NCBI RefSeq assembly: GCF_000718555.1
Contig: NZ_JOAN01000009.1
Span: forward strand, 124,001-188,000
Length of the DNA stretch: 64,000 nucleotides
Direction: 5' to 3'
Source: Micromonospora chokoriensis
Lineage (GTDB): Bacteria; Actinomycetota; Actinomycetes; Mycobacteriales; Micromonosporaceae
Shown here: one piece after another, positions 14,550 through 28,696 of the stretch
Numbering within the stretch: position 1 is the stretch's first letter
How the letters are laid out: every line of letters starts with the position of its first letter
Notes under the pieces: generated by a model
The model's input: only the letters and a program-made list of their open reading frames with translations
Told to the model about the DNA's origin: nothing
The model's database searches: none
Program-made: the position numbers and the translations under genes

Positions 14550-17500
14550 GTGCTGGTCATCCACGGGCTGTGGCTGCCCGGCGACAGCTCGACCGGCGGT
14601 CTCGCCGTCTGGGCCGAGGACAGCGCCGCGCCACCCGCGCCGGTTCGTCCCGGCCGGCCGCCCCGGGAACGCCCACACCCCTTCGCCGCCGGGCACACCG
14701 AGCTGGCCGCCGTCCTCGCCGACGCCGCCGAGCCGACCCGCCTGGACAGCGCGCTGCTCACCCTGCCCACCCTGGCCGGCGCGCCGACCGACTCACCCGA
14801 GCTGATCCGGACCGCCGTCGCACCCGCGGCCCGCGGCCGGCTCACCCTGGCGCGGTGGCGGGTCCCCGTCCTGGTGTACGCCCCAGACGCCGCGCTGTCG
14901 TTACTGCGTACCCTCGACGACCTCCCGGCCGCACCCGGGGCCACCCTGCGGCACCTCGCCGAACTGGCCGACTTCGCCGCCGACCTGGTGACCCGTGGCC
15001 GCCTCCTCCCCGGTGTCCGCACGACGATCGGTGACCAGGCGCCCAGCGCTGGTGTGCCGGCCCCGTCGGGCGCTGCCGCGACGGTGCCCGCGCAGGCGGT
15101 CTGGCGTCCGCTGCTGACCGGCACCGACGCGGCCTGGGCGCGGGCGTTGGCGCTGGCCCTGCCACCAGCGGCCCGAGCCGCCGTCGTGCCGGCCGCCGCG
15201 TCGCCGCCGACCGCCGCACTGCCACCAGCCACCGCGGCTGCTCTGCCGCCCACCCCGGGCACCGCCCCGGCCGCCATCGCCCCGACTGCCATCGGCACGG
15301 CGACCCTCGGGTCGGACGGGCCCGAGCTGACCGCCGCGGTGCTGGTCGCGGATGCGCTCGACGCGTTGACCGATGCTGCCGCGCGGGCTGCTCTGGCGAC
15401 CACCACGCTGGCCCGGGGGCTGCGCCCGGGTGGCCCGGCACCGGCCTGGTTGGCCGCGCTCGCCGGCCCCCAACGGGACTTCACCATCGACCCGGCTGGG
15501 CTGGCCACCCTGCACGCCGAGCTGGACGCCTGGCAACGTGACGCCGCCGGTGGCCCGGTGCGGGCCAGTTTCCGGCTGGTGGAACCGGCCCCCGACGAGG
15601 TCACCGAACCGATCCTGGCCACCCGGGCGCTGCCCGCCGACAGCGCGCCGGTGCCGGTCGAGTCGACAGGTGGCGGGCGCTGGCGGCTGGAGTTCGGGTT
15701 GCAGGCCGCAGACGAGCCCGGCCTGCACGTCGACGCCGGGCAGGTCTGGCGGGCGCCGCACACGCTCGGCGGCCTGGCTGGCCGTACGACCAGCCCGCAG
15801 GAGACGCTCCTCGCCGAGCTGGGCCGGGCCAGTCGGCTCTGGCCGGACCTGGACGCCGCGCTGCGTACCGCCGCCCCGGAGGCGATGGAGTTCGACGTCG
15901 AGGGGGCCCACCGGTTCCTGAGCGCGGGTGCCCCGGTGCTGCACGCGGCCGGTTTCGGGGTGCTGCTGCCGTCCTGGTGGCAACGTCCGTCGGCGCGGTT
16001 GGGCGCCCGGTTGCGGGCTCGCAGCCGCACCGCGCCGGGCACGGTGGGTGGCGCCGATGCCGGTGTCGGTCTGGATGCCCTGGTCGACTACCGCTGGGAG
16101 ATCGCGCTCGGCGACCAGCCGCTCTCCGCCGAGGAGTTGGCGACGCTGGCCGAGCTGAAGACGCCGCTGGTGCGGCTGCGCGGCAGGTGGGTGGAGCTGG
16201 ACCCGGGGCGGCTCGCCGCCGGTCTGCGTCTGCTCCGCTCGGCCGGCGAGTTGACCGTCGCCGACCTGCTCCGCCTCGGGCTGGCCGACGGTGAGGCCAC
16301 CGGTGCGCTGCCAGTGCTGGAGGTTACCGCCGACGGAGCGCTTGGTGACCTGCTCGCCGGCGCGGTCGAGCGACGACTCGCCCCGCTCGATCCGCCGCCG
16401 GGCTTCCGGGGGACGTTGCGGCCGTACCAGCAGCGTGGGCTGGCCTGGCTGGCCTTCCTGCGCTCACTCGGCCTGGGCGGTGTGCTCGCCGACGACATGG
16501 GGCTGGGCAAGACGGTGCAACTGCTCGCGCTGCTCGCCGGGGACCCGCCGGAGGCCGGGCCGACCCTGCTGGTCTGTCCAATGTCGCTGGTCGGCAACTG
16601 GCAGCGGGAGGCGGCACGGTTCACCCCGGAGCTGCGGGTGCACGTACACCATGGCGCGGAGCGCGCGCGGGGGGCGGAGTTCACGGCGGCCGCACACGGC
16701 GCGGACCTGGTCCTCACCACCTACTCGGTGGCCGCCCGCGACGCCGCCGACCTGGCCGGCATCGACTGGCACCGGGTGGTGGTGGACGAGGCGCAGGCGA
16801 TCAAGAACGCGTCGACCCGGCAGGCCGAAGCGGTTCGCGCGCTGCCCGCGAGGCAGCGGGTGGCGGTGACCGGTACGCCGGTGGAGAACCGGCTGGCCGA
16901 CCTCTGGTCGATCATGCAGTTCGCCAACCCGGGGCTACTCGGGCCGGCGGCGACGTTCCGCAAGCGGTTCGCCGAGCCGATCGAGCGGCACGGCGACGCC
17001 GAGGCCGCCGAGCGGCTCCGCCGGATCACCGGGCCGTTCGTGTTGCGTCGGCTCAAGACCGACTCGTCGATCATCTCGGACCTGCCGGAGAAGCTGGAGA
17101 TGGAGGTGCTCTGCAACCTCACCGCCGAGCAGGCCGCGCTGTACCGGGTGGTGGTCGACGACATGCTCGCCCGGATCGAGACCAGCGACGGCATCGAGCG
17201 ACGCGGCCTGGTGCTGGCCACCATGACCCGACTCAAACAGGTCTGCAACCACCCCGCCCAACTGCTGCGCGACGGCTCGCCGCTGGAGGGCCGCTCGGGC
17301 AAGCTGGCCCGGCTCACCGAGATCCTGGAGGAGGTGCTGGCGGCGGGGGAGCGGGCGCTGCTGTTCACCCAGTACGCCGAGTTCGGTGCGATGTTGCGCG
17401 GTCACCTGTCGGCGCGGTTCGGCCGGGAGGTGCTGTTCCTGCACGGTGGTCTCGGCAAAGCCGAGCGGGACGCCCTGGTGCAGCGCTTTCAGTCGGCGCA

Positions 17501-17834
17501 GGGTCCACCGTTGTTCGTCCTGTCCCTCAAGGCCGGCGGCACCGGGCTCACCCTGACCGCCGCCAACCACGTGGTGCACGTGGACCGGTGGTGGAACCCG
17601 GCGGTCGAGGACCAGGCCACCGACCGGGCGTTCCGGATCGGGCAGAGCCGACGGGTGCAGGTCCGCAAGTTCGTCTGCGCCGGCACGGTGGAGGAGAAGG
17701 TGGCTGCGATGATCGCCGACAAGCGCAGCCTCGCCGAGCGGGTGGTCGGCACGGGTGAGCAGTGGATCACGGAGTTGTCCACCGGCCAGTTGCGGGACCT
17801 GTTCGCGCTGGAGGCCGGGGCGGTGGTGGAGTGA
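14550..17834 (+). CDS. SNF2/Swi2 family DEAD-box helicase-like ATPase
   Basis: A 1094-residue actinobacterial SNF2 ATPase of the HelZ type (M. tuberculosis Rv2101 relatives). Residues 1-470 are Ala/Pro/Leu-rich and family specific, about 470-600 form the SNF2-associated domain, and then comes the motor: Walker A DDMGLGKTVQ (about 648-657), DEAQ box at 746-749, TGTPVENRLADLWS, and the C-terminal lobe with LFTQYAEFG, LKAGGTGLTLT and ATDRAFRIGQ (about 1021-1030). Such proteins translocate on double-stranded DNA and may remodel protein-DNA complexes. GTG start with GAGGGGGAG upstream. The SWIM-domain gene overlaps its stop (GTGA), so the two are translationally coupled. Confidence 0.92.
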   Translation: MLVIHGLWLPGDSSTGGLAVWAEDSAAPPAPVRPGRPPRERPHPFAAGHTELAAVLADAAEPTRLDSALLTLPTLAGAPTDSPELIRTAVAPAARGRLTLARWRVPVLVYAPDAALSLLRTLDDLPAAPGATLRHLAELADFAADLVTRGRLLPGVRTTIGDQAPSAGVPAPSGAAATVPAQAVWRPLLTGTDAAWARALALALPPAARAAVVPAAASPPTAALPPATAAALPPTPGTAPAAIAPTAIGTATLGSDGPELTAAVLVADALDALTDAAARAALATTTLARGLRPGGPAPAWLAALAGPQRDFTIDPAGLATLHAELDAWQRDAAGGPVRASFRLVEPAPDEVTEPILATRALPADSAPVPVESTGGGRWRLEFGLQAADEPGLHVDAGQVWRAPHTLGGLAGRTTSPQETLLAELGRASRLWPDLDAALRTAAPEAMEFDVEGAHRFLSAGAPVLHAAGFGVLLPSWWQRPSARLGARLRARSRTAPGTVGGADAGVGLDALVDYRWEIALGDQPLSAEELATLAELKTPLVRLRGRWVELDPGRLAAGLRLLRSAGELTVADLLRLGLADGEATGALPVLEVTADGALGDLLAGAVERRLAPLDPPPGFRGTLRPYQQRGLAWLAFLRSLGLGGVLADDMGLGKTVQLLALLAGDPPEAGPTLLVCPMSLVGNWQREAARFTPELRVHVHHGAERARGAEFTAAAHGADLVLTTYSVAARDAADLAGIDWHRVVVDEAQAIKNASTRQAEAVRALPARQRVAVTGTPVENRLADLWSIMQFANPGLLGPAATFRKRFAEPIERHGDAEAAERLRRITGPFVLRRLKTDSSIISDLPEKLEMEVLCNLTAEQAALYRVVVDDMLARIETSDGIERRGLVLATMTRLKQVCNHPAQLLRDGSPLEGRSGKLARLTEILEEVLAAGERALLFTQYAEFGAMLRGHLSARFGREVLFLHGGLGKAERDALVQRFQSAQGPPLFVLSLKAGGTGLTLTAANHVVHVDRWWNPAVEDQATDRAFRIGQSRRVQVRKFVCAGTVEEKVAAMIADKRSLAERVVGTGEQWITELSTGQLRDLFALEAGAVVE

Positions 17835-18772
17835 CCGACTACGGGCGTCCCCGTCGGGTCGACGGGGGTCTGCGGGCCCGCAGCGCTCGAGGCGCGATCG
17901 GGCAATCCTGGTGGTCGCGGCGTTTCCTGGAGGTGTTGGAGTCGTTCGCGCTCGGCACCCGGTTGACCCGGGGCCGCTCGTACGCGCGGGCCGGTCAGGT
18001 GCTCAGCCTCGACATCGCACCCGGACAGGTCAGCGCGGTGGTGCAGGGCTCCCGGCCGAAGCCGTACCAGGTGTCGATCGCGCTGAAGCCGTTCCCGGCC
18101 GCGCTCTGGTCCCGGATCGAGAACGAGCTGGCCGGGCAGGCGTTCTTCAGTGCGCGGCTGCTTGCCGGGGATCTCCCCGACGAGTTGGAGGAGCTGTTCA
18201 TCGCCGTCGGCGCGCCGCTCTTCCCGGCCGGCGTGGACGAGTTGACCCAGCGCTGCAACTGCCCCGACTTCGCGGTGCCGTGCAAGCACCTCGCGGCGAC
18301 GTTCTACCTGCTGGCCGAGGCGTTCGACGCGGACCCGTTCGAGCTGCTGCACTGGCGCGGCCGGTCCCGCGCCCAGTTGCTCGACGAACTCCGCGCGCGA
18401 CGGGCCGCGGCCACCGGCACCACCGGCCCGGTCGACGTACCGTCCGAACCGGACGGTGCGGTGTCGACAGTGGACTTTGTCGCGCCGGTCGGTGCCGCGC
18501 GTGCGCTCGCCGGGCTGTCGGCGACACCGCTTGCCGAGGCGGCAGACCGGTTCTGGTCAGCGCCGGTGCCGCTGCCGGATCGGCCGCCCCGACTGGTGAC
18601 CGGCACCGATCTGCTGCTGCGCCAGCTCGGAGCGCCCGCCCCGGCCATCGGTGGGCCGGGGCTGCTCGAACGGTTGCGCCGCGCGTACCGGGCCTTCGGC
18701 CCGGCCGACCAGCGAGCCGTCACGTCCAGCGGTCGAGCAGTCACGTCCAGCGGCGGCGGAATCGCCACATGA
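17831..18772 (+). CDS. SWIM zinc-finger protein, partner of the SNF2 ATPase
   Basis: A 313-residue protein with a SWIM zinc finger, CNCPDFAVPCKHLAATFY (CxCx6CxH), around residues 140-157. SWIM fingers bind DNA or proteins, and in actinobacteria this gene directly follows the SNF2 ATPase. The start GTG overlaps the helicase stop codon. The N-terminal half (GAIGQSWWSRRFLEVLES, GRSYARAGQVLSLDI) is the standard conserved part. The C-terminus ends in two copies of RAVTSSG from a short DNA duplication, and its last 32 bp overlap the convergent DUF3040 gene. The pair may act in DNA repair or chromatin-like remodelling; that is inferred. Confidence 0.88.
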   Translation: MTDYGRPRRVDGGLRARSARGAIGQSWWSRRFLEVLESFALGTRLTRGRSYARAGQVLSLDIAPGQVSAVVQGSRPKPYQVSIALKPFPAALWSRIENELAGQAFFSARLLAGDLPDELEELFIAVGAPLFPAGVDELTQRCNCPDFAVPCKHLAATFYLLAEAFDADPFELLHWRGRSRAQLLDELRARRAAATGTTGPVDVPSEPDGAVSTVDFVAPVGAARALAGLSATPLAEAADRFWSAPVPLPDRPPRLVTGTDLLLRQLGAPAPAIGGPGLLERLRRAYRAFGPADQRAVTSSGRAVTSSGGGIAT

Positions 18773-18998
18773 TCGCGGCGTTGGCCACCAGCACCACCGC
18801 GCAGATCGCGCCGGTCATTCGACCGGCGAACACGGCTATCGCCGGCAGCGACGCCCACAGCACGATGGTCAACAACATCAGGTAGCGGCCCCTGCGGGCC
18901 CGGACCCGGTGGTCCAACCGGGCGAAGAAGGCCGGGTCACTCTCCCGGAGCTGACGGGTGATCTGGTCGAATCTGCGCTGATCCTCTTTGCTGAGCAT
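18741..18998 (-). CDS. DUF3040 family membrane protein
   Basis: An 85-residue actinobacterial DUF3040 protein: MLSKEDQRRFDQITRQL, a short basic linker, then two hydrophobic helices (about 43-60 and 63-77) and a basic tail MWRFRRRWT. Function unknown; typical size. Its 3' end overlaps the end of the SWIM gene by 32 bp in convergent orientation, so antisense RNA between them is possible. Start ATG at 18998. Confidence 0.85.
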   Translation of the reverse strand: MLSKEDQRRFDQITRQLRESDPAFFARLDHRVRARRGRYLMLLTIVLWASLPAIAVFAGRMTGAICAVVLVANAAIMWRFRRRWT

Positions 18999-19429
18999 GG
19001 CGCTGCCTTCCCCTCACGCGTTCAGCGGTTCGGCGGCATACCCGCTGCGGTGGCGGCTCACGCTCGCACGCTGCTGCTACTTTTCCTCCACGCGAGGTCG
19101 TCTCATGTCCGGCTTACCCGAACCTTAAGTTTGCCTTTGGTGGTGAACGGCGCCGAAAGTGCCGCGTACGGCGGCGCGGTCCGATCCGTGCTCGGCTGCC
19201 GCGCGTACGCCCTGCTGAGGCGGTCTGCGTGCGGACCCGCCCCACCGCCCGCCGCCGATGTGGCGCTGAGCGCTGTCTTAAGTGCCCTCACGAGTGCGGT
19301 TCCGGCCGCCTTGAAGGGCCCTGGGGCCTTGGTTACCTTGCCGTAGCAACCCCCTCAGGCAAAGTCGCCGCACCTGCCGCACCTGCCCGGTAGCAGCTTC
19401 CGGCGCTCATCAGAAATCGGGATTGGTAC
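18999..19429. other. Intergenic region upstream of the redox operon
   Basis: About 430 bp with no supported gene. It must contain the promoter of the DUF1800-led operon. I see AT-richer islands (ACCTTAAGTTTGCC near 19121; GGTTACCTTGCCGTAG near 19330) but no convincing -35/-10 pair and no conserved RNA element. Confidence 0.4.
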
Positions 19430-21529
19430 ATGGCCGACCAGAATGTGCCACCACGTCGACCGCGGGACGACCGCGGTTGGGACGGACACCAGCACCACAG
19501 CGCTGACGGTTACGGCGACCCCCACCCGCCCGCGCCCTACGGCTACGACTCGCCCCACCCCCACCAGGGCGGCTACGCCGCGCAGGCCGACCCGCGTGAG
19601 CAGTACGGCGACGGGTACGCGCACGCCGGGCAGCCCGCACCCGCCCCGCGCGGCCCGCAGTGGGTCGGCCCGGAGGGCCTGGGCCGCCCGGCCCCGGCGC
19701 GACCGGCCGGCACCGGACTGCCCACCCTCGACGATGACGATGAGCCGGGTCGCAAGGTCGGCCGACGCAAGGCGATGGTGGCCCTCGGCGGCACCGCCGC
19801 TGTCGTCGCCGGTGGCGCGGCGCTCGCCATGACCCCGCAGTTCCGTGGCCTCTTCGGCGACGAGGCGGCGGCTGGCGACGCGACCGGCAGCACGGTGACC
19901 GACGGCACCGCGGCGCGGCCCAGCGGCCAGCAGCCCAGCACGGTGCGGACGTACACCGAGCAGAACGAGAGCTACATGGGCTCCCGGGCCGGTGAGGCGC
20001 TGAAGAAGAACGCGCCGGCCGGTGGACGGACCTTCTCCGGCCCGGCCGCGGCCGCGGCGGCGACCCAGGTGACCGTGAAGACGGTGCTGGCCAAGGACCC
20101 GATCCTGCACCTGGCCCGGCGCACCACCTTCGGCGTGACGCCCGCCGTGGTCGCCGACATCAAGCGTGAGGGCATCGACGGCTGGATCCGGGCTCAGCTG
20201 GACCCGGGCAAGTTGGAGCCGAGCAAGGGCGAGCTGAAGCTCGCCGAGCTGCCCACCCAGAAACTCTCCGTGCAGCAGCTGCGCGACCAGCGGGACAAGC
20301 TCAACGAGCAGGACGCCCACCCGGAGCGGGAGATGGTCGACGCCACCATCGCCCGGCAGATCTGGTCCAAGCGCCAGCTGTTCGAGGTGATGGTCGACTT
20401 CTGGAACGACTTCCTGCACGTCGCGGCGGACTTCGACGGCGGCGAGGTGTACCGCAGCTCGTTCGACCAGGACGTCGTACGCAAGCACGCGCTGGGCAGC
20501 TACCCGGAGATGTTGGTCGCCGCGAACAAGCACCCCGCGCTGCTGATCTACCTGAACCAGAAGGACTCCCGCAAGGACGCGATCAACGAGAACCTCGCCC
20601 GGGAGAACCTCGAGCTCTACTCGGTCGGTGTCGACGGCGGTTACAAGGAGCCGGACGTCCGGCAGGCCGCCATGTTGCAGACCGGCCGCGGCGTCGACGA
20701 CAAGGGCAAGTACGTCTTCCGCCCCGAGCAGCACTACGTCGGCAAGGTGAAGATCCTCGGCTTCAGCCACGCGAACAACTCGGCCGACCCGAAAAAGGCC
20801 GAAGCGGCGATCGACGCGTACATCACCTACATCGCGCTGCACCCGTCGACCGCGAAGTACGTGGCGCAGAGCCTGGCCACCCGGTTCGTCTCGGACACCC
20901 CGCCGAAGTCCCTGGTGGACCGGCTGGCCAAGTCGTACACCACGAACAACGGCATGATCAAGCCGGTCCTGATGACGCTCTTCTGCTCCTCGGAGTTCTG
21001 GGCCGGGGTGGGCCAGAAGGTGCGCCGGCCGATGGAGTACCTGATCGCCACGTACCGCACCCTGGGCGTCGCACCGGACGCGTCGCCGAAGCACAACAAC
21101 GGCGACAGCAAGCGCACCCCGTACGCCCGGGGGTTGCGCCAGATCCACGACAAGCTGCGCGAGTTGGGCCACTACCCGATGGGTCAGCCCACCCCGGACG
21201 GCTACCCGGACGTCTACATCGCCTGGACCTCCGCCGGCACCATGGTCAACGGCTGGAACGAGGCGGGCGAGATCCTCGCCGGCTACCGCACCACCTTCAC
21301 GTACACGGCGCCGGAGAAGCTGGTCGCCAAGGCGCCGGCGACGGCCGGGGCGTACGTGGACGCTCTCTCCCTGCGGCTGGTGGGCCAGAAGTTGAGCACG
21401 CGGGAGAAGAACCTCATTCTCGGCGTGGCCGGTGTGACGGCGACCGCCAAGGTCGACGCCACGTTCAACGGGGCCATCACCGCCGTCGCGCGGGCGATCC
21501 TCGCTTCCCCCCAGCACCACCTCCGGTGA
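19430..21529 (+). CDS. DUF1800 family protein, putative Tat/membrane-anchored
   Basis: A 699-residue protein. Residues 1-105 are a His/Pro/Gly/Tyr-rich tail with no fold; then GRKVGRRKAMVALGGTAA (about 106-135) looks like a twin-arginine signal or anchor; from about 215 the DUF1800 domain follows (HLARRTTFGVTPAVVADI, RQIWSKRQLFEVMVDFWNDF, LARENLELYSVGVDGGY, FRPEQHYVG). DUF1800 genes are regularly paired with DUF1501 genes in many phyla; their function is unproved though secretion or surface roles have been suggested. First gene of a five-gene operon; its stop overlaps the next start. The long disordered cytoplasmic N-terminus before the Arg-Arg is unusual for a Tat substrate. Confidence 0.85.
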   Translation: MADQNVPPRRPRDDRGWDGHQHHSADGYGDPHPPAPYGYDSPHPHQGGYAAQADPREQYGDGYAHAGQPAPAPRGPQWVGPEGLGRPAPARPAGTGLPTLDDDDEPGRKVGRRKAMVALGGTAAVVAGGAALAMTPQFRGLFGDEAAAGDATGSTVTDGTAARPSGQQPSTVRTYTEQNESYMGSRAGEALKKNAPAGGRTFSGPAAAAAATQVTVKTVLAKDPILHLARRTTFGVTPAVVADIKREGIDGWIRAQLDPGKLEPSKGELKLAELPTQKLSVQQLRDQRDKLNEQDAHPEREMVDATIARQIWSKRQLFEVMVDFWNDFLHVAADFDGGEVYRSSFDQDVVRKHALGSYPEMLVAANKHPALLIYLNQKDSRKDAINENLARENLELYSVGVDGGYKEPDVRQAAMLQTGRGVDDKGKYVFRPEQHYVGKVKILGFSHANNSADPKKAEAAIDAYITYIALHPSTAKYVAQSLATRFVSDTPPKSLVDRLAKSYTTNNGMIKPVLMTLFCSSEFWAGVGQKVRRPMEYLIATYRTLGVAPDASPKHNNGDSKRTPYARGLRQIHDKLRELGHYPMGQPTPDGYPDVYIAWTSAGTMVNGWNEAGEILAGYRTTFTYTAPEKLVAKAPATAGAYVDALSLRLVGQKLSTREKNLILGVAGVTATAKVDATFNGAITAVARAILASPQHHLR

Positions 21530-22920
21530 GGCACCCGATGGAGAAGACTGTGTACAACTCTTTCCCCCTGCACCCCGAATGCCCCGACGTGCGGCGGCTG
21601 GCCGACAACCCGGCCGAGGCGTTGCTGCGCGCCGAGGCGGACATCGTCGCCGCCGAGAACGCCGCCGAGTTCGACCGCTACCGCACCCTGGAGAACCTGG
21701 AGGAGGCCCAGCAGGACGGTCGGGGCGTCACCCGACGGACCTTCGTCGCCGGTGCCGCGGCCACCGCCACCGCGCTGGCCACCGCCCAGTTCGTCACCAC
21801 GTCGGCGTCGTTCGCGGCGACCAAGACCGGCACCCTGATCCACGTCTTCCTCTACGGCGGGCTGGACGGGCTGAGCCTGGTCGCACCGGACAACGACCCG
21901 GTGCTCGCCAAGGCCCGCCCCGACCTGCTGCTCGGTAACGACTCGCTGGCCCTGGGCCGCGGCTTCAAACTGACCAGCGCCTTCAAGCCGCTGGAGAAGT
22001 GGCTCACGGCCGGCCAGTTGGGCTTCATCCCGGCGGTCTCCGACGAGCGGCTGTCGCGCAGCCACTTCCAGGCCGCCGACGCCTGCAACCTGGGCGGGCT
22101 GCCGAACGAGACCGGTGGCCGGGGCTGGCTCGACGGGCTCGTCGACAACCTGGGCAAGGGCACCGCGTTCCGCAGCGTCGGCGTCGGCAGCACGCTGCCC
22201 CGCTCGCTGGTCGGCAACAACGGCGCGATCTCGCTGAACAACGTCGGGTCGCTGCGGCTCAACGGTGACGAGCGGTTCCGCGCCGCCACCGAGAAGGCCA
22301 TCAAGGGGCTCTTCACCGGGATCAACCACCCGGTCGAGGAGGCCGTGCAGGAGGGCATGGGCGCGCTGGCCACCGCCCAGCGGCTCGCCGCCAAGCCGTA
22401 CCAGCCCGTCGAGGGCGTCAAGTACGAGGGCGTCGGCAACGCGTTCCAGCAACTCGCCCAGCTGATCAAGGGCGGCGCCAACGTCCGGGTCGCCACCGTC
22501 GGCATGGGTGGCTACGACACCCACGAGAACCAGGGCACCCGCGAGGGCGGTCAGCTGCACCGCCGGCTCAACGAGCTGGCCAGCGCGATGGCCGCCTTCT
22601 TCACCGACCTCGGCCCGCAGGCCGCCGATGTGACGATCATGGTGTCCAGCGAGTTCGGCCGCCGGGTCGGCTCCAACGGCGGCGGCACCGACCACGGGCA
22701 CGGCGGGGTCGTCACCCTGCTCTCCGGCAAGAAGCTGGCCGGCTCGCTGCTCGGCACCTGGAACGGCCTGGACAAGCTGGACTCCGGTGACGTGCCGGAG
22801 TACAACAACATGTTCAACGTCTACGGCGCGGTGGCGCAGGGCCGGTTCGGGCTCACCAACGCGGAGGTCGACAAGGTCTTCCCCCGCCAGAAGTACGCCC
22901 CGATGAAGCTGTACGCGTGA
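21526..22920 (+). CDS. DUF1501 family protein, Tat-exported
   Basis: A 464-residue DUF1501 protein, distantly related to the alkaline phosphatase/sulfatase fold. After about 65 residues comes a Tat signal, TRRTFVAGAAATATALAT, with an alanine-rich cut region (ASFAA). The mature part starts TLIHVFLYGGLDGLSLVAP and includes SRSHFQAADACNL, MGGYDTHENQG, VMVSSEFGRRVGSNGGGTDHGHGG and a closing YNNMFNVYGAV, all usual in the family. The catalytic serine or threonine of true sulfatases is not evident. GTG 21526 overlaps the DUF1800 stop; ATG 21538 is an alternative. Also overlaps the next gene by GTGA. Confidence 0.87.
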   Translation: MRHPMEKTVYNSFPLHPECPDVRRLADNPAEALLRAEADIVAAENAAEFDRYRTLENLEEAQQDGRGVTRRTFVAGAAATATALATAQFVTTSASFAATKTGTLIHVFLYGGLDGLSLVAPDNDPVLAKARPDLLLGNDSLALGRGFKLTSAFKPLEKWLTAGQLGFIPAVSDERLSRSHFQAADACNLGGLPNETGGRGWLDGLVDNLGKGTAFRSVGVGSTLPRSLVGNNGAISLNNVGSLRLNGDERFRAATEKAIKGLFTGINHPVEEAVQEGMGALATAQRLAAKPYQPVEGVKYEGVGNAFQQLAQLIKGGANVRVATVGMGGYDTHENQGTREGGQLHRRLNELASAMAAFFTDLGPQAADVTIMVSSEFGRRVGSNGGGTDHGHGGVVTLLSGKKLAGSLLGTWNGLDKLDSGDVPEYNNMFNVYGAVAQGRFGLTNAEVDKVFPRQKYAPMKLYA

Positions 22921-24335
22921 CGCATCCGCACACCCACGCCGCCGGCCGTCGTACCGGGACCTCGTCCCGGCACGGCGGCCGGTCGGCTGCACCCGTACCC
23001 CCGCAGATCCCGGCCCGGCGCGGGCCCGGCGGCCGACGGCTACTGGGCGTGCTGCTCCTGGTTGGCCTGCTCGCCAGTGTGCTGCCGTGGTGGCTGGGCA
23101 CCCCTGCCGGTTCGCTGCGCAGCACCGCCGCCACCGTCACGGCGGCGGGCCGGATCACCGGTCTGATCGCCGGCTACCTGCTGCTGGTGCAGGTGCTCAT
23201 GATGAGCCGGCTGGCGGTGCTGGAACGGTGGATCGGCGGCGAGCACCTGGGTCGCTGGCACCGCGACATCGGGGCCACCCTGCTGGTCACCGTGCTGGCG
23301 CACATGTCGCTGATCCTCATCGGCTACGCCGACCTGCGGAACCAGTCGATCCTCGCCGAGGTCGGCACGCTGCTCGGCGACTACGAGGACATGGTCTCGG
23401 CGTTCGTCGCCACCGGCATCATGGTGCTGGTCGGGTTCAGCAGCGTCCGGGCGATCCGACGGGCGTTGCCCTACGAGCTGTGGCACCTGCTGCACCTGTC
23501 CAGCTACCTGATCCTGCTGCTCGGCTTCGGCCACCAGTTCACCCACGGCGCGCAGCTGTACAAGGCCGGTCCGGTGCGTACCGGCTGGATCGCGCTCTAC
23601 CTGCTGGTGGTCGCCGCGCTGCTCTGGGGCCGCGTGATCGCGCCGCTGGCGTTCAACCTGCGCTACCGGCTGCGGGTCGCCGACGTGGTCGCCGAGAGCC
23701 CGGACACCATCTCCATCTACCTCACCGGCGAACGGCTCGGCCGGCTGGCGATGCTCGGCGGCCAACACTTCCGCTGGCGGTTCCTCACCCGGGGCTGCTG
23801 GTGGCAGTCGCACCCATTCTCCGTCTCCGCCGCCGCGAACGGCCGTTGGCTGCGGATCACCGTCAAGGTGGTCGGCACCCACACCGCGGACCTGCGCGAC
23901 CTGGAGCCGGGCACCCGGGTCTGGGCGGAGGGCCCGTCGGGCACCTTCACCGCCGCGCACCGGCTCCGCGAGCGGGCGCTGCTGATCGCCGGTGGCAGCG
24001 GCATCACACCGATCCGGGCGATGCTGGAGGAGCTGCCGCCGGGCGCCGCGCTGATCTACCGGGCCCGCACCCCCGCCGACGTCCTGCTCAACCGCGAGCT
24101 GGACTGGCTGGCCCAGGAGCGCGACACCTCGGTCTGGTACGTCATCGGCTCCCGCGACGACCCCGGCCCCCGCCAACTGATGAGCCCGGACGGGTTGCGT
24201 CAACTGGTGCCCGACGTGGCCCGGCGCGACGTCTACCTGTGCGGGCCACCCGGTTTGGTGGAACAGTCGGTGCGTGCGCTGCGGCGCGCCGGCGTGCCCC
24301 GACGGCAGATCCACCTGGCCACGTTCGAGCTGTAG
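22917..24335 (+). CDS. Ferric-reductase-like transmembrane flavocytochrome (FAD/NAD(P)H oxidoreductase)
   Basis: A 472-residue membrane oxidoreductase. About six helices between residues 40 and 240 carry the likely haem histidines in RWHRDIG, LAHMSLI, WHLLHLSS and GHQFTHG. The cytoplasmic half follows: FAD binding with HPFSVSAA and GTHTADLRDLEPG, then the NAD(P) part GGSGITPIRAML and YLCGPPGLVEQSV. The enzyme should take electrons from cytoplasmic NAD(P)H to haem and across the membrane. Placed directly before an FMN-binding protein and ApbE, it is likely to feed an extracytoplasmic flavin. GTG start overlapping the DUF1501 stop. Confidence 0.88.
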   Translation: MTHPHTHAAGRRTGTSSRHGGRSAAPVPPQIPARRGPGGRRLLGVLLLVGLLASVLPWWLGTPAGSLRSTAATVTAAGRITGLIAGYLLLVQVLMMSRLAVLERWIGGEHLGRWHRDIGATLLVTVLAHMSLILIGYADLRNQSILAEVGTLLGDYEDMVSAFVATGIMVLVGFSSVRAIRRALPYELWHLLHLSSYLILLLGFGHQFTHGAQLYKAGPVRTGWIALYLLVVAALLWGRVIAPLAFNLRYRLRVADVVAESPDTISIYLTGERLGRLAMLGGQHFRWRFLTRGCWWQSHPFSVSAAANGRWLRITVKVVGTHTADLRDLEPGTRVWAEGPSGTFTAAHRLRERALLIAGGSGITPIRAMLEELPPGAALIYRARTPADVLLNRELDWLAQERDTSVWYVIGSRDDPGPRQLMSPDGLRQLVPDVARRDVYLCGPPGLVEQSVRALRRAGVPRRQIHLATFEL

Positions 24336-24347
24336 GAAGGGCATTTC

Positions 24348-24932
24348 ATGCGTCGCGCGTTCCTCGCGATCACCGGCCTGGCCGCCAGCACCACCGCGTT
24401 GGTGGTGCTCAAGGGCTCGCCGGGCGCCACCCCGGTCGCCCAGAACGTGCCGACCGCCCAGCCGGTCAACCCCACCCCGCTGGGGGTCGACCCGAGCGCC
24501 GACCCGGCCGCCGGCCCACCGACGCCGTCGGTCGCCCCCACGGCGCCGACGTCGCCCAAGCCCGGCAAGACCACCACCCGCCCGTCGGGCACCAAGACGA
24601 CCACGAAGGCCCCCAGCGCACCCCGGACCACCACCAAGGCGCCACAGTCGACCAACCGCCGGGTGACCGGCAACGGCTTCGAGAACGAGTACGGGTACGT
24701 GCAGGTGCAGATCGTCGTCTCGGGTAACCGGATCGTCGAGGCCGTCGCGCTGTCGCTGCCCAGCGGGGGTGAGTCCGACATCCACAGCGGCGACGTCCGC
24801 AACCGCTACGACGGCAGCGGCGGCGAGGTGGTGCAGAAGCAGAACGCGAACCTCAACACCGTCTCCGGGGCCACCGAGACCAGCAACTCCTACAAGCAGT
24901 CGCTGCGCTCCGCCATCGAGCAGGCGTTCTGA
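24348..24932 (+). CDS. Extracytoplasmic FMN-binding domain protein
   Basis: A 194-residue exported protein. The N-terminal hydrophobic segment RRAFLAITGLAASTTALVVL is a signal/anchor; residues about 30-105 are a Pro/Thr/Ala/Lys-rich linker; the FMN-binding domain starts at TGNGFENEYGYVQVQIVV and ends with SGATETSNSY. The motif SGATxT is the site of covalent FMN attachment through phosphoester to a threonine (here probably Thr178), carried out by ApbE. GGAAGGG stands before the ATG. It lies 12 bp after the flavocytochrome gene and 1 bp before apbE, so a flavinylated electron carrier outside the membrane is the natural reading. Confidence 0.9.
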   Translation: MRRAFLAITGLAASTTALVVLKGSPGATPVAQNVPTAQPVNPTPLGVDPSADPAAGPPTPSVAPTAPTSPKPGKTTTRPSGTKTTTKAPSAPRTTTKAPQSTNRRVTGNGFENEYGYVQVQIVVSGNRIVEAVALSLPSGGESDIHSGDVRNRYDGSGGEVVQKQNANLNTVSGATETSNSYKQSLRSAIEQAF

Positions 24933-24933
24933 C

Positions 24934-25704
24934 GTGCGGGCCACGCTGACCCGACCCGGGCTGTGCCGGGTCGAACAGATCATGGGTACGGCGATCACCC
25001 TGGACCTCGCCGACGACCTGCCCCCGGCGACCCTGCGTGAGCTGGCCGATGAGGTCTTCGCCTGGATGCACGAGGTGGACGCGCGGTTCAGCACGTACCA
25101 GCCGGACAGCGAGGTGTGCCGCTTCGACCGGGGCGAGGTGCTGCTCTCCGAGGCGTCCGCGGACCTGCGGTTCGTGCTGGAGACCTGCGCCGACCTGTGG
25201 GGGGCCACCGACGGGTTCTTCGACGCGTACGCCACCGGTCGACTCGACCCGTCCGGCTTCGTCAAGGGCTGGGCGGCTCAGGTCGCCTCGGACCGCCTCG
25301 TCGCCGCCGGTGCCGTCAACCACTGTGTGAACGCCGGCGGCGACGTACGGGTGCGGGGGCTGTCGCCGTCCGGGGAGCCGTGGCGCATCGGCATCCGGCA
25401 CCCGTGGGACGCGATGGCGGCCTGCCTGGTGCTGACCGGGACCGATCTGGCCGTGGCCACGTCCGGCGTCTACGAGCGGGGCCGGCACGTGCTGGACCCG
25501 CGCCGGGGCACGCCGGCCAGTGGGCTGCGCTCGGTGACCGTGGTCGGCACCGACCTCGGGGTGGCCGACGCGTACGCCACCGCCGCCCTGGCCATGGGCA
25601 CTCCCGGCCTGGGCTGGCTGGCCCGCCTGGACGACCACACCCACGCGGCGATAACGGACAACGCCCGTCAGCACCACTCCGTCGACCTCCCGCTGACCGA
25701 CTAG
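24934..25704 (+). CDS. apbE: FAD:protein FMN transferase (ApbE)
   Basis: A 256-residue ApbE, which cleaves FAD and attaches FMN to threonine in target proteins. Motifs: EQIMGTAITLDL, EVDARFSTYQPDSEVCRF, DPSGFVKGWAAQ, VNAGGDVRVRG, VATSGVYERGRHVLDPRRG, VVGTDLGVADAYATAAL. These supply the FAD pocket and magnesium ligands. Length is shorter than in Gram-negative lipoprotein ApbE, and there is no signal peptide, as in many actinobacteria. GTG at 24934 follows the FMN-binding gene stop by one base. The obvious substrate is that neighbour. Confidence 0.92.
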   Translation: MRATLTRPGLCRVEQIMGTAITLDLADDLPPATLRELADEVFAWMHEVDARFSTYQPDSEVCRFDRGEVLLSEASADLRFVLETCADLWGATDGFFDAYATGRLDPSGFVKGWAAQVASDRLVAAGAVNHCVNAGGDVRVRGLSPSGEPWRIGIRHPWDAMAACLVLTGTDLAVATSGVYERGRHVLDPRRGTPASGLRSVTVVGTDLGVADAYATAALAMGTPGLGWLARLDDHTHAAITDNARQHHSVDLPLTD

Positions 25705-25958
25705 CGCAGCGGGCGGTGGGTGCCGGCTGGGCGGGAGCCGGTGGGGCGTGGGCGGCCGGGGCGGGAGCCGGACGGCCGGGTGCCGGCCCAGCGGTGCCGT
25801 GGGTGGCTGCGCCGGGGCGGCTCGGTGCCGCCGGGATGAGGCACCCTGTCGTTTGTGGACATCGTTCCCCCGTTCGTGGCGCGCGTTCGCACCGTCTCCC
25901 TGTCAACGAGGACCGACGCCCCGGCGACGCTGTCGGCCACCGGATCGAGTCGCCTGTC
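25705..25958. other. GC-rich convergent intergenic region
   Basis: 254 bp between convergent genes. It is made of degenerate GGGCGGGAGCCGG-like units near 25730-25790, with no clear gene. A basic minus-strand frame of about 53 codons starting MSTNDRVPHPG can be drawn but its codons follow the repeats and it is not supported. Confidence 0.4.
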
Positions 25959-26690
25959 TCACATGCCTCGTCGAGGCAGCGGCAGATGGCCGGGGAGCAG
26001 GTCGGGGGCGAGCGTCACCCCGGTGGCCCGCAGCGCCCCGATCAACGTGTTCTGCACGAGGTACGAGTCTGGAAGCTGCCAGCGCGCCTGCTCCGGGGCG
26101 ACCGCCCAGCGGACCGTGCCCTCCGGCAGTCGGGTGGGCGGCGCGGGGATCCACGAGCCCGGCCCGTGTCGGACCACGTGGAAGCAGTGCTCCAACTCCG
26201 GCCGGAGCGGGTCGCCGGGGCGGACCAGGAACATCCACCGCCCGGTGGGAGTGACAAGCACCGGCCCGCGTACGCCGGTGCCGGCCGGGTGGATCTGGAC
26301 CGCGTCGAGCACGTGCCGGCCGAGGTGGGCGGGCACCTCCAGCACGTCGAAGGCCCGCCCGGTGGGCAGCAGCACCCCGTGCGGGCGGCTCCGCCACCAG
26401 GTGGCCACCCGGGCCGGGTCGGCGCTGGCGGCCAGCTCCCAGTTCTCCAGGGCGGGATGGCAACCCACGGTGGGACAGCCGGCCCGGCCGCAGACGAAGC
26501 GGCTGCGGGCCAGACAGGCGCCCGGGGTGACCTCCCAACCGTGTGCGGCGTACCGGATGGCGACCCGGCGCAGCCGGACCCGTTCCAGCGGCGACAGTTC
26601 AGCGACGCGCGGTCCGACGTTCCCCCACATGTGCGCTATCTCCTCTCGTCGGGCCCGGCGTTCGCCAGGTGGCATGTCGAGCACCGTCAC
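25959..26690 (-). CDS. Bifunctional DNA primase/polymerase-like protein (prim-pol N-terminal domain)
   Basis: About 243 residues, related to the N-terminal prim-pol domain of archaeo-eukaryotic primases found in plasmid replication proteins, but here alone. Recognised parts are AIRYAAHGWEVTPGA, a probable zinc knuckle CxxxxxxxCGRAGCPTVGCHP, WWRSRPHGVLLPTGRAFDVLEVP and FLVRPGD. The metal-binding DxD expected in active enzymes is replaced by FDVLEVP, so activity is uncertain. The start is not certain: GTG 26690 (MTVLDMPPGERRARRE) is chosen by resemblance to relatives; there is no good ribosome site. Divergent from an HTH regulator gene, with a perfect palindrome between them. Confidence 0.65.
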   Translation of the reverse strand: MTVLDMPPGERRARREEIAHMWGNVGPRVAELSPLERVRLRRVAIRYAAHGWEVTPGACLARSRFVCGRAGCPTVGCHPALENWELAASADPARVATWWRSRPHGVLLPTGRAFDVLEVPAHLGRHVLDAVQIHPAGTGVRGPVLVTPTGRWMFLVRPGDPLRPELEHCFHVVRHGPGSWIPAPPTRLPEGTVRWAVAPEQARWQLPDSYLVQNTLIGALRATGVTLAPDLLPGHLPLPRRGM

Positions 26691-26726
26691 TGCCGTAACC
26701 CACGATCGTTGAGGTTGACGAACGGC

Positions 26727-26743
26727 TCGTGCAACTTGCACGA
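26727..26743. promoter_or_regulatory. Perfect palindrome between primase-like and HTH genes (possible operator)
   Basis: TCGTGCAACTTGCACGA: eight-base arms around one base. It lies 37 bp before the chosen start of the minus-strand gene and 134 bp before the HTH gene. A second, weaker pair TGTAC...GTACA spans 26761-26777. A site for the adjacent HTH protein or another regulator is inferred. Confidence 0.55.
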
Positions 26744-26877
26744 AAAGTACGAGGACCAGCTGTACGGCTGACGTACATCCTGTGCGACCAGCGAAAACCT
26801 GAAAGTGAACAACGGCCGCCGCGCCCAGAGACATCGCCCCGACTCGATTGGTGTCGGCGGCAGGGGAGGATGGGGAG

Positions 26878-28107
26878 ATGGACGAGCTACCCATAGGACG
26901 GCGAGTGGCCTACTGGCGAGGGCGACGCAAGATGTCGCAGCAGGTCTTCGCGGACCGGCTGGGCAAGTCCAAGAGCTGGGTGGACAAGGTCGAACGCGGC
27001 GTCCGTCGGTTGGACAAGTTCTCCGTCCTCTACGAGATCGCCGACATCCTCCAGGTGGATGTGCAACTGCTCATGGGCAAGGACCCCGAGCGCCGCACCG
27101 ACGCGCTGAACTGCATCGACCAGGTCGAGGTGCAGGAGATCCGGGCGGCGCTGGAACGCTACGACTCGATGAGCGCGTACTTCGACGCGGTGCCGTTTCC
27201 GCCGCCACTGGACGACATGCGCAAGGCCGTCAACCACGCCTGGCTCACCTACCAGTACGGCCGTTACGGGATGCTCACCCGGGCGCTGCCCAAGCTGCTG
27301 CGTGACGCCCAGGCGGCCGACGCCGCCTACGGCGGTGAGCAGGCCGCCGAGGCGGCCCACCTGCTTGGGCAGGTCTATCAGATCGCCTCCTCGGTGCTGC
27401 GCAAGCTTGGCGAGTGCGAGCTCGCCTGGCTGGCCGCCGACCGGTCGATGGCAGTGGCCCAGCGGGCCGACGACCCCCTGCTGGCCGGGATCGCCACCAC
27501 GCGCGTGTGCAATGCCCTGGTTGCGATGGGGCGGGCCCGTCCCGCGCTGGAGCTGAATGTCCAGATCGCCGGCCGGCTGGCACCGGGCGGGATCAACGAG
27601 CTGTCCCCGGCCCGGCTCTCCGTCTACGGGATGCTGCTGCTCCAGGGTGCGATGGCCGCTTCCCGCATCGGCGACTCGTCCAGCGTCGACGACCTGATCA
27701 ACTGTGCGCAGGAGGCCGCCGACCTGCTTGGCGGCGACCACAACCACTACTGGACGTCGTTCGGCCCGACAAACGTCGAGCTGCACCGGGCCGCCGCCGC
27801 CGTGGAGCTGGGCGACGGGGGGCGGGCCGTGGAGGTGCACCAGCTGCGCATCGCGGAGCCCGCCTTCAACGCGCTGCTGCCCGAGCGCCGCGCCCACCAC
27901 CTGCTCGACATCGCCCGGGGGTACGCCCAGATAGGCGACGTGGCCAACGCCGGCGAGATGCTGCTGCTCGGTGATCGACTCGCCCCGTCGGAGATCCGCT
28001 GCCGGCCGATCGCGCACGAGGTGATGTCCGACATCCTCCGTCGCACACGTGGTGCGCCGCCTTCTCCGATAGCGGAGTTGGCTGAGCACATGGGAGTAGG
28101 GGTATGA
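26878..28107 (+). CDS. XRE-type HTH regulator with long TPR-like C-terminus
   Basis: A 409-residue regulator. The HTH domain covers residues 5-65 (GRRVAYWRGRRKMSQQVFADRLGKS in part, then WVDKVERGVRRLDKFSVL). The rest is helical and repeats in a TPR-like way (HLLGQVYQIASSVLRKLG, LAWLAADRSMAVAQRADD, ARLSVYGMLLLQGA, HHLLDIARGYAQIGD), as in actinobacterial regulators that sense peptides or small ligands. ATG at 26878 has GGGGAGGA about ten bases ahead. The flavoprotein gene follows 16 bp downstream and is probably co-transcribed. Confidence 0.85.
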   Translation: MDELPIGRRVAYWRGRRKMSQQVFADRLGKSKSWVDKVERGVRRLDKFSVLYEIADILQVDVQLLMGKDPERRTDALNCIDQVEVQEIRAALERYDSMSAYFDAVPFPPPLDDMRKAVNHAWLTYQYGRYGMLTRALPKLLRDAQAADAAYGGEQAAEAAHLLGQVYQIASSVLRKLGECELAWLAADRSMAVAQRADDPLLAGIATTRVCNALVAMGRARPALELNVQIAGRLAPGGINELSPARLSVYGMLLLQGAMAASRIGDSSSVDDLINCAQEAADLLGGDHNHYWTSFGPTNVELHRAAAAVELGDGGRAVEVHQLRIAEPAFNALLPERRAHHLLDIARGYAQIGDVANAGEMLLLGDRLAPSEIRCRPIAHEVMSDILRRTRGAPPSPIAELAEHMGVGV

Positions 28108-28123
28108 GCGCGGAGCCGGTGTG

Positions 28124-28696
28124 ATGGCCGGTGCGACACGCAACAGCGGGCACCGCGAGGTGCTCTACGTCATCGCCTGCGGTTCGCCGCTGGCACGGCA
28201 CGTCGGTCGTCTGGTCGACCTCGCCCAACACGATGGTTGGGACGTCTGCGTGGTCACCACGCCGGACGGCGCGAAGTTCGTCGACCAGTCGGCCCTGATT
28301 CGCCAGACCGGCCATCCGGTGCGGACGCACTACAAGAATCCCGGTGACCCGGACGTATTGCCGCCCGCCGACGCCATGATCGTCTGCCCGGCGACCGTCA
28401 ATACGGTCAACAAGTGGGCCGCTGGGATCACCGACACCCTGGCGCTCGGGCTGCTGGTCGAGGCCCAGGGCAAGGGCGTCCCCATCGTGGCAGTGCCGTA
28501 CACAAACGTGGCGATGGCCTGCCACCCGGCATTTCGGGCCGGGGTGTCCCGGTTGGCCGAGTGGGGCGTCACGGTGCTCTTCGGTGACGACGTGATCGCT
28601 CTGCATCCGCCCGGGACGGGGGAGCAGCACCTGCACGCCTTCCCCTGGGCGATGCCGCTGGCCGCGCTGCGCACGATCTCCTGGAGCGCTGCCTAG
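28124..28696 (+). CDS. Flavoprotein of the HFCD family (phosphopantothenoylcysteine decarboxylase-like)
   Basis: A 190-residue Rossmann-like flavoprotein. Family traits: the opening VLYVIACGSPLARHVGRLVD, the strand VCVVTTPDGAKFV, the conserved substrate/FMN loop PADAMIVCPATVNTVNKWAAG and TDTLALGLLVEA. The true CoaB/C and lantibiotic EpiD decarboxylases share this fold, but the full CoaBC gene would be about twice as long, so this is a separate relative. It follows an HTH regulator and may be regulated with it. ATG 28124 is chosen over GTG 28121. The substrate is unknown. Confidence 0.82.
   Translation: MAGATRNSGHREVLYVIACGSPLARHVGRLVDLAQHDGWDVCVVTTPDGAKFVDQSALIRQTGHPVRTHYKNPGDPDVLPPADAMIVCPATVNTVNKWAAGITDTLALGLLVEAQGKGVPIVAVPYTNVAMACHPAFRAGVSRLAEWGVTVLFGDDVIALHPPGTGEQHLHAFPWAMPLAALRTISWSAA

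Follow-up and report, generated by a model that had tools for sequence, protein, structure and literature searches.

The closest described counterparts of the locus analysed here are the MsrQ-like flavinylated systems, in which a PF01794 gene lies in a cluster with flavin mononucleotide (FMN)-binding and/or ApbE genes; 1797 such clusters were recorded in 1468 genomes, the NAD-binding domain PF00175 is present in 1437 of the 1797, and the systems are broadly conserved in Actinobacteria (Meheust et al. 2021; PMC8238504). In the 64,000-nucleotide stretch of Micromonospora chokoriensis DNA studied here (the window, to which all plain coordinates refer), such a system is joined to a DUF1800/DUF1501 pair in a real and conserved run of five genes, g1 to g5, all on the plus strand (19430-25704). 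Like the MsrQ-like systems, g3-g5 combine a PF01794 plus PF00175 protein (g3), an FMN protein with an SGATxT motif (g4) and an ApbE protein (PF02424; g5), and by their domain content they are a member of this group. In the present locus the three genes are accompanied by DUF1800 and DUF1501, whereas the main text of PMC8238504 contains none of the terms DUF1800, DUF1501, Tat and twin; a further difference is that the ApbE protein here has no recognisable signal peptide. DUF1800-DUF1501 pairs beside bacterial chitin synthases are likewise adjacent, with a twin-arginine motif on DUF1501 (PMC5122149), but the pair studied here is overlap-joined to a flavin electron exporter, and the scanned genes of the window include no chitin synthase. 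The Listeria-type extracellular flavin transfer likewise has a surface electron carrier that is flavinylated by an ApbE-type enzyme; there, however, the transferase FmnB is extracytosolic and needs flavin export, whereas the ApbE protein here appears to be cytosolic (PMC9973259). Finally, the predicted fold and the invariant Asp and His residues of DUF1501 resemble those of the alkaline phosphatase superfamily (PafA, NPP, sulfatases, EptC/BcsG, LtaS), from which this protein, whose activity is a prediction, differs by an identity of 6-14% in the aligned rows shown and by an extra N-terminal helix before the twin arginine (RR).

Within the family the arrangement is close to fixed. Searching named genomes with g1 yielded 66 loci, seven of which end before g5 (L015, L018, L041, L047, L050, L057, L061). 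Because 55 of the 59 informative loci keep all five genes in order (with g1 of L064 and g2 of L048 matching partially only), the five-gene order exceeds chance. The remaining four are three Phytohabitans loci, in which g1-g2 are followed by the usual downstream helix-turn-helix (HTH) gene, and one locus from a metagenome-assembled genome (L070, the same place as L092) with g1-g4 but no adjoining ApbE gene; none was found in that genome, which is rated 94% complete. As the first-pass annotation had described, GTGA is shared between g1 and g2 (21526-21529) and again between g2 and g3 (22917-22920, the join of the two modules), and gaps of 12 bp and 1 bp follow at g3-g4 and g4-g5. Across 58 Micromonospora-type loci with automatic start choice, the overlap of 4 bp was found at g1-g2 in 51 of 56 and at g2-g3 in 55 of 56 readable loci; 53 of 55 loci have a g3-g4 gap of 10 to 16 bp (the other two, 24 and 90 bp), and the g4-g5 gap is looser (1 bp in 28 of 52 loci, otherwise -4 to 58). 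Junctions this tight persist in Micromonospora, Asanoa and further genera, which speaks for selection on co-expression. Of 121 genomes sampled from the family, 85 encode DUF1800 and 78 a g4-type FMN protein, and at least 21 have the two on the same strand at a distance of about 3 kb; 14 of these 21 were read as sequence (the window plus 13 fetched loci, of which one breaks off within g4) and seven by coordinates. At L091 (G149), g1, g3 and the HTH gene are each broken across frames, possibly by sequencing error, possibly by decay.

The flavin part of the locus is well defined. The product of g3 (22917-24335, GTG start) is a predicted ferric-reductase-like membrane flavocytochrome with C-terminal flavin adenine dinucleotide (FAD) and NAD(P) domains (Pfam Ferric_reduct 50 bits; NAD_binding_1, PF00175, 41.4 bits against a cut-off of 22; FAD_binding_8 24.8 bits). 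Its histidine pairs H115-x13-H129 and H193-x12-H206 are invariant in 73 of 73 aligned sequences, their spacing of 13 and 12 residues is that of the ferric reductase/NADPH oxidase family, and g3 has two predicted haem sites. The FMN_bind match of g4 (24348-24932, ATG start, 194 residues) is, at 23.8 bits, barely above the cut-off of 22; the protein consists of an MRR start with a hydrophobic segment, a Pro/Thr-rich linker (residues 25-108) and a C-terminal FMN domain. This domain carries the flavinylation motif SGATET (24864-24881); its second threonine, Thr178 (codon 24879-24881), is shared by all 10 aligned orthologues. A putative FAD:protein FMN transferase of the ApbE family (153 bits) is encoded by g5 (24934-25704, GTG start, 256 residues); it begins at the catalytic core, and its in-frame N-terminus contains neither a hydrophobic stretch nor a recognisable signal peptide. 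Read by eye, the ApbE proteins of eight other triads also have no hydrophobic N-terminus. The first-pass annotation had recognised in g3-g5 the core of a flavin electron-transfer system, with electrons passing from NAD(P)H through haem to FMN, a reading that the two histidine pairs, the SGATxT motif and ApbE support, and had proposed Thr178 as the flavinylation target, with which motif position and invariance agree. A search limited to the five genes found no Pfam domain of the molybdopterin subunit MsrP. The window's genome (6.97 Mb) contains three DUF1800 matches and one FMN_bind match above the cut-off, against which stands a second ApbE match (G000:C3:271974-272378).

Both DUF1800 and DUF1501 are common families without a proven role in the literature found, and the locus places them in a short stable run with a concrete, testable activity, namely metal-dependent phospho- or sulfo-ester chemistry. 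The DUF1800 protein g1 (19430-21529, 699 residues; 373.6 bits) starts with about 110 Pro-rich residues, followed by the sequence GRRKAMVALGG, which resembles a signal for twin-arginine translocation (Tat; RR codons 19763-19768) and whose RR is nearly, not fully, invariant. Its AlphaFold2 model (19991-21526) has a mean predicted local distance difference test score (pLDDT) of 92.1, and a comparison with the PDB gave no structural match. In the DUF1501 protein g2 (21526-22920, GTG start, 464 residues; 73 bits), the RR motif lies at residues 70-71, behind about 69 largely helical residues (21526-21735). Both this part of DUF1501 and the Pro-rich N-terminus of DUF1800 are missing from the Phytohabitans proteins. 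For DUF1501, membership of the alkaline phosphatase superfamily is predicted: structure comparison recovers the core fold of the superfamily in its model, and D114, S179, D331, H333, D389 and H390, predicted candidates for metal ligands and nucleophile, are invariant in 59 of 59 aligned sequences. Since the chemistry of this superfamily requires no electrons, DUF1501 is less likely to be an electron acceptor, and no redox motif was found in the sequences of g1 and g2. Another DUF1800-DUF1501 pair of the window's genome (L105, on G000:C3) lies inside a polysaccharide cluster with glycosyltransferases, Wzy, a sugar transferase and LytR-CpsA-Psr.

A twin arginine ahead of a moderately hydrophobic segment is present in g1, g2 and g4; these motifs fit the 'Tat-type' label of the first-pass annotation, and g1 and g2 are probably exported. 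A Met-Arg-Arg start is found in 119 of 120 g4 homologues (the best 120 of 818, mostly Micromonospora) and Arg-Arg at the same position in 8 of 8 other triads; signs of a cytosolic ApbE protein and of a Tat-type carrier occur together in 8 of 8 related triads. If true, this combination would represent a second route by which an extracytosolic flavoprotein obtains its cofactor without flavin export. Cytosolic loading followed by Tat export is not stated for these flavinylated systems in the accessible text of PMC9973259, PMC12052999, PMC5928378, PMC7660919 or PMC8238504, a literature mostly outside the subscription journals. The Listeria paper contrasts, in general terms, Tat export of loaded proteins with loading outside (PMC9973259), and in Klebsiella a cytosolic ApbE protein serves a soluble fumarate reductase (PMC12052999). 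The Tat idea already has a printed neighbour in the work on PceC, which mentions a different dehalogenating bacterium with an apbE gene inside its Tat operon, there interpreted as a link to RdhC assembly; for PceC itself, FMN attachment was measured as a mass gain of about 438 Da (FMN 456 minus water 18; PMC5928378).

Some related genomes have just one half of the locus at this position. In eight fetched Phytohabitans-type loci from five strains (L065-L067, L082-L086), g1-g2 are followed by the HTH gene (87 bp after g1-g2 in L066), and a g4-type protein was found in none of six sampled Phytohabitans genomes, in which other ApbE genes are present. The triad without the pair is seen at L093 (G156) and L094 (G168), in the order SNF2 and SWIM genes upstream, g3-g4-g5, then HTH and flavoprotein genes; DUF1800 has no match in the genome G156. 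In four Dactylosporangium-type genomes (L087-L090) g1-g2 stand without the triad, which in one of them, G254, lies at a different place (L097); a triad was also read in G229 (L096). In a 25-row tree built from the two genes downstream, three state changes are needed; Phytohabitans forms a single clade (100/100), and the loci with the triad only fall in two places on a weak backbone. In the simplest reading, the five-gene locus would be ancestral and one or the other half would have been lost.

We regard it as probable, though far from certain, that one transcript carries two cell-envelope modules, the DUF1800/DUF1501 pair (module A; g1, g2) and an MsrQ-like electron exporter (module B; g3-g5), which would share regulation rather than electrons. 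Module A would be a Tat-exported pair with DUF1800 as the helical partner of DUF1501, the latter being a predicted metal-dependent hydrolase or transferase acting on phospho- or sulfo-esters; the likely substrate is a glycopolymer, either of the envelope or exported. In module B, cytosolic NAD(P)H would reduce FAD in g3, electrons would traverse the membrane by way of the two predicted haems, the FMN attached to Thr178 of g4 would be reduced by them, and g4, on its flexible Pro/Thr linker, would pass the electrons to an outside acceptor. The ApbE protein would attach FMN in the cytosol, after which g4 would leave the cell folded via Tat. Several observations weigh against this reading. The near-fixed g2-g3 overlap might reflect a closer link between the modules than common regulation; the DUF1501 model reaches template modelling scores of about 0.3 to known folds and has a pLDDT below 50 at residues 64-99 and 381-389 (D389 included); and a clear polysaccharide cluster surrounds only 2 of 10 other pairs (L101-L110, neighbours partly scanned), the others being mixed. 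In addition, the MRR of g4 could be the start of a general secretory (Sec) anchor in an Arg-rich proteome, the 120 homologues behind the MRR count belong mostly to one genus, and the weak tree is compatible with the triad-only state having arisen just once.

Alternatively, the locus might serve assimilatory iron reduction, module B reducing outside Fe(III) and module A freeing iron from phosphate or polymer ligands. We consider this unlikely, although the VIT1 iron transporter is present in 153 of 1797 MsrQ-like clusters (PMC8238504) and the g1-g4 run of L070/L092, one genome, adjoins an oppositely oriented EfeU-EfeO-EfeB set. This neighbour was seen in that genome only, lies on the opposite strand and has an iron-box-like site of its own; none of the five genes encodes an iron transporter, and no IdeR/DmdR-like iron box was found within six mismatches of the consensus at 17500-28000. 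The set itself (L070:5436-8836, beside g4) comprises genes for an EfeB-type Dyp peroxidase, EfeO and an FTR1 permease, and the iron-box-like site (2 mismatches) lies at 8850 of L070.

That the two modules adjoin each other through descent alone, without a common role or regulation, seems to us quite improbable. The restriction of the arrangement to one family, the loci with one half only and the separate places of both halves in G254 would agree with such a history, but the overlaps and short gaps kept across genera point to selected co-expression.

The first-pass annotation had proposed that the electrons serve the DUF1501/DUF1800 pair, the FMN protein handing them to a redox enzyme or to one that needs reduction. 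The near-fixed gene order with a 4-bp overlap between the halves, the Tat-like motifs in three of five products and a marine-metagenome correlation study that places ApbE and DUF1800 in one cluster (PMC3597751) could be read in this way. By the criterion which that annotation had set itself, the outcome is mixed. The pair does keep its triad in 55 of 59 loci, but not in Phytohabitans, and G156 and G168 have the triad only; likewise, the adjacency of DUF1800-DUF1501 with ApbE/FMN_bind genes is kept in the family, but was not seen beyond it among the matches listed. In a phylum sample of 149 genomes, DUF1800 is present in 12, FMN_bind in 42 and both in two; the window's genome alone has them side by side. 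Of 296 genomes sampled across the class, 86 contain DUF1800 and 112 a g4-type match; apart from three genomes of the window's genus, 83 have DUF1800 and 36 of these also a g4-type protein, and among the matches listed every such pair lies at least about 50 kb apart. Four genomes outside the matches listed were checked separately with the same result, and at least seven genomes hold further matches beyond those listed. Electron hand-over to the pair is made less likely by each half standing alone at the same locus and by the hydrolase-type predicted fold of DUF1501, and with neither protein showing a redox motif we regard it as very unlikely and the earlier proposal as not supported. Just as doubtful is a single wall complex of the Tat-exported FMN protein, DUF1501 and DUF1800, in which cytosolic ApbE would load the FMN protein and a phosphatase-superfamily enzyme would be coupled to outward electron flow.

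Upstream of g1, two footprints on the plus strand, both containing CTTAAG, are conserved in the Micromonospora and Asanoa loci compared: CTTACCCGAACCTTAAGTTT at 19113-19132, a possible promoter or regulator site with one occurrence in the genome at up to one mismatch, and CTTAAGT at 19277-19283, found in the alignment of loci. A promoter scan of the locus, ill-suited to this bacterial group, found none. An antisense open frame of 721 codons opposite g1 (19355-21520, minus strand) is expected from the high G+C content and was not counted as a gene. Downstream follow a convergent Prim-Pol gene (25959-26894, minus strand), a gene for a long HTH regulator (26848-28107, plus strand) and a flavoprotein-family gene (28121-28696, plus strand), and the latter two adjoin the operon in most related loci with contigs long enough. 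The two downstream genes show 97% identity to their counterparts in Micromonospora sp. H61.
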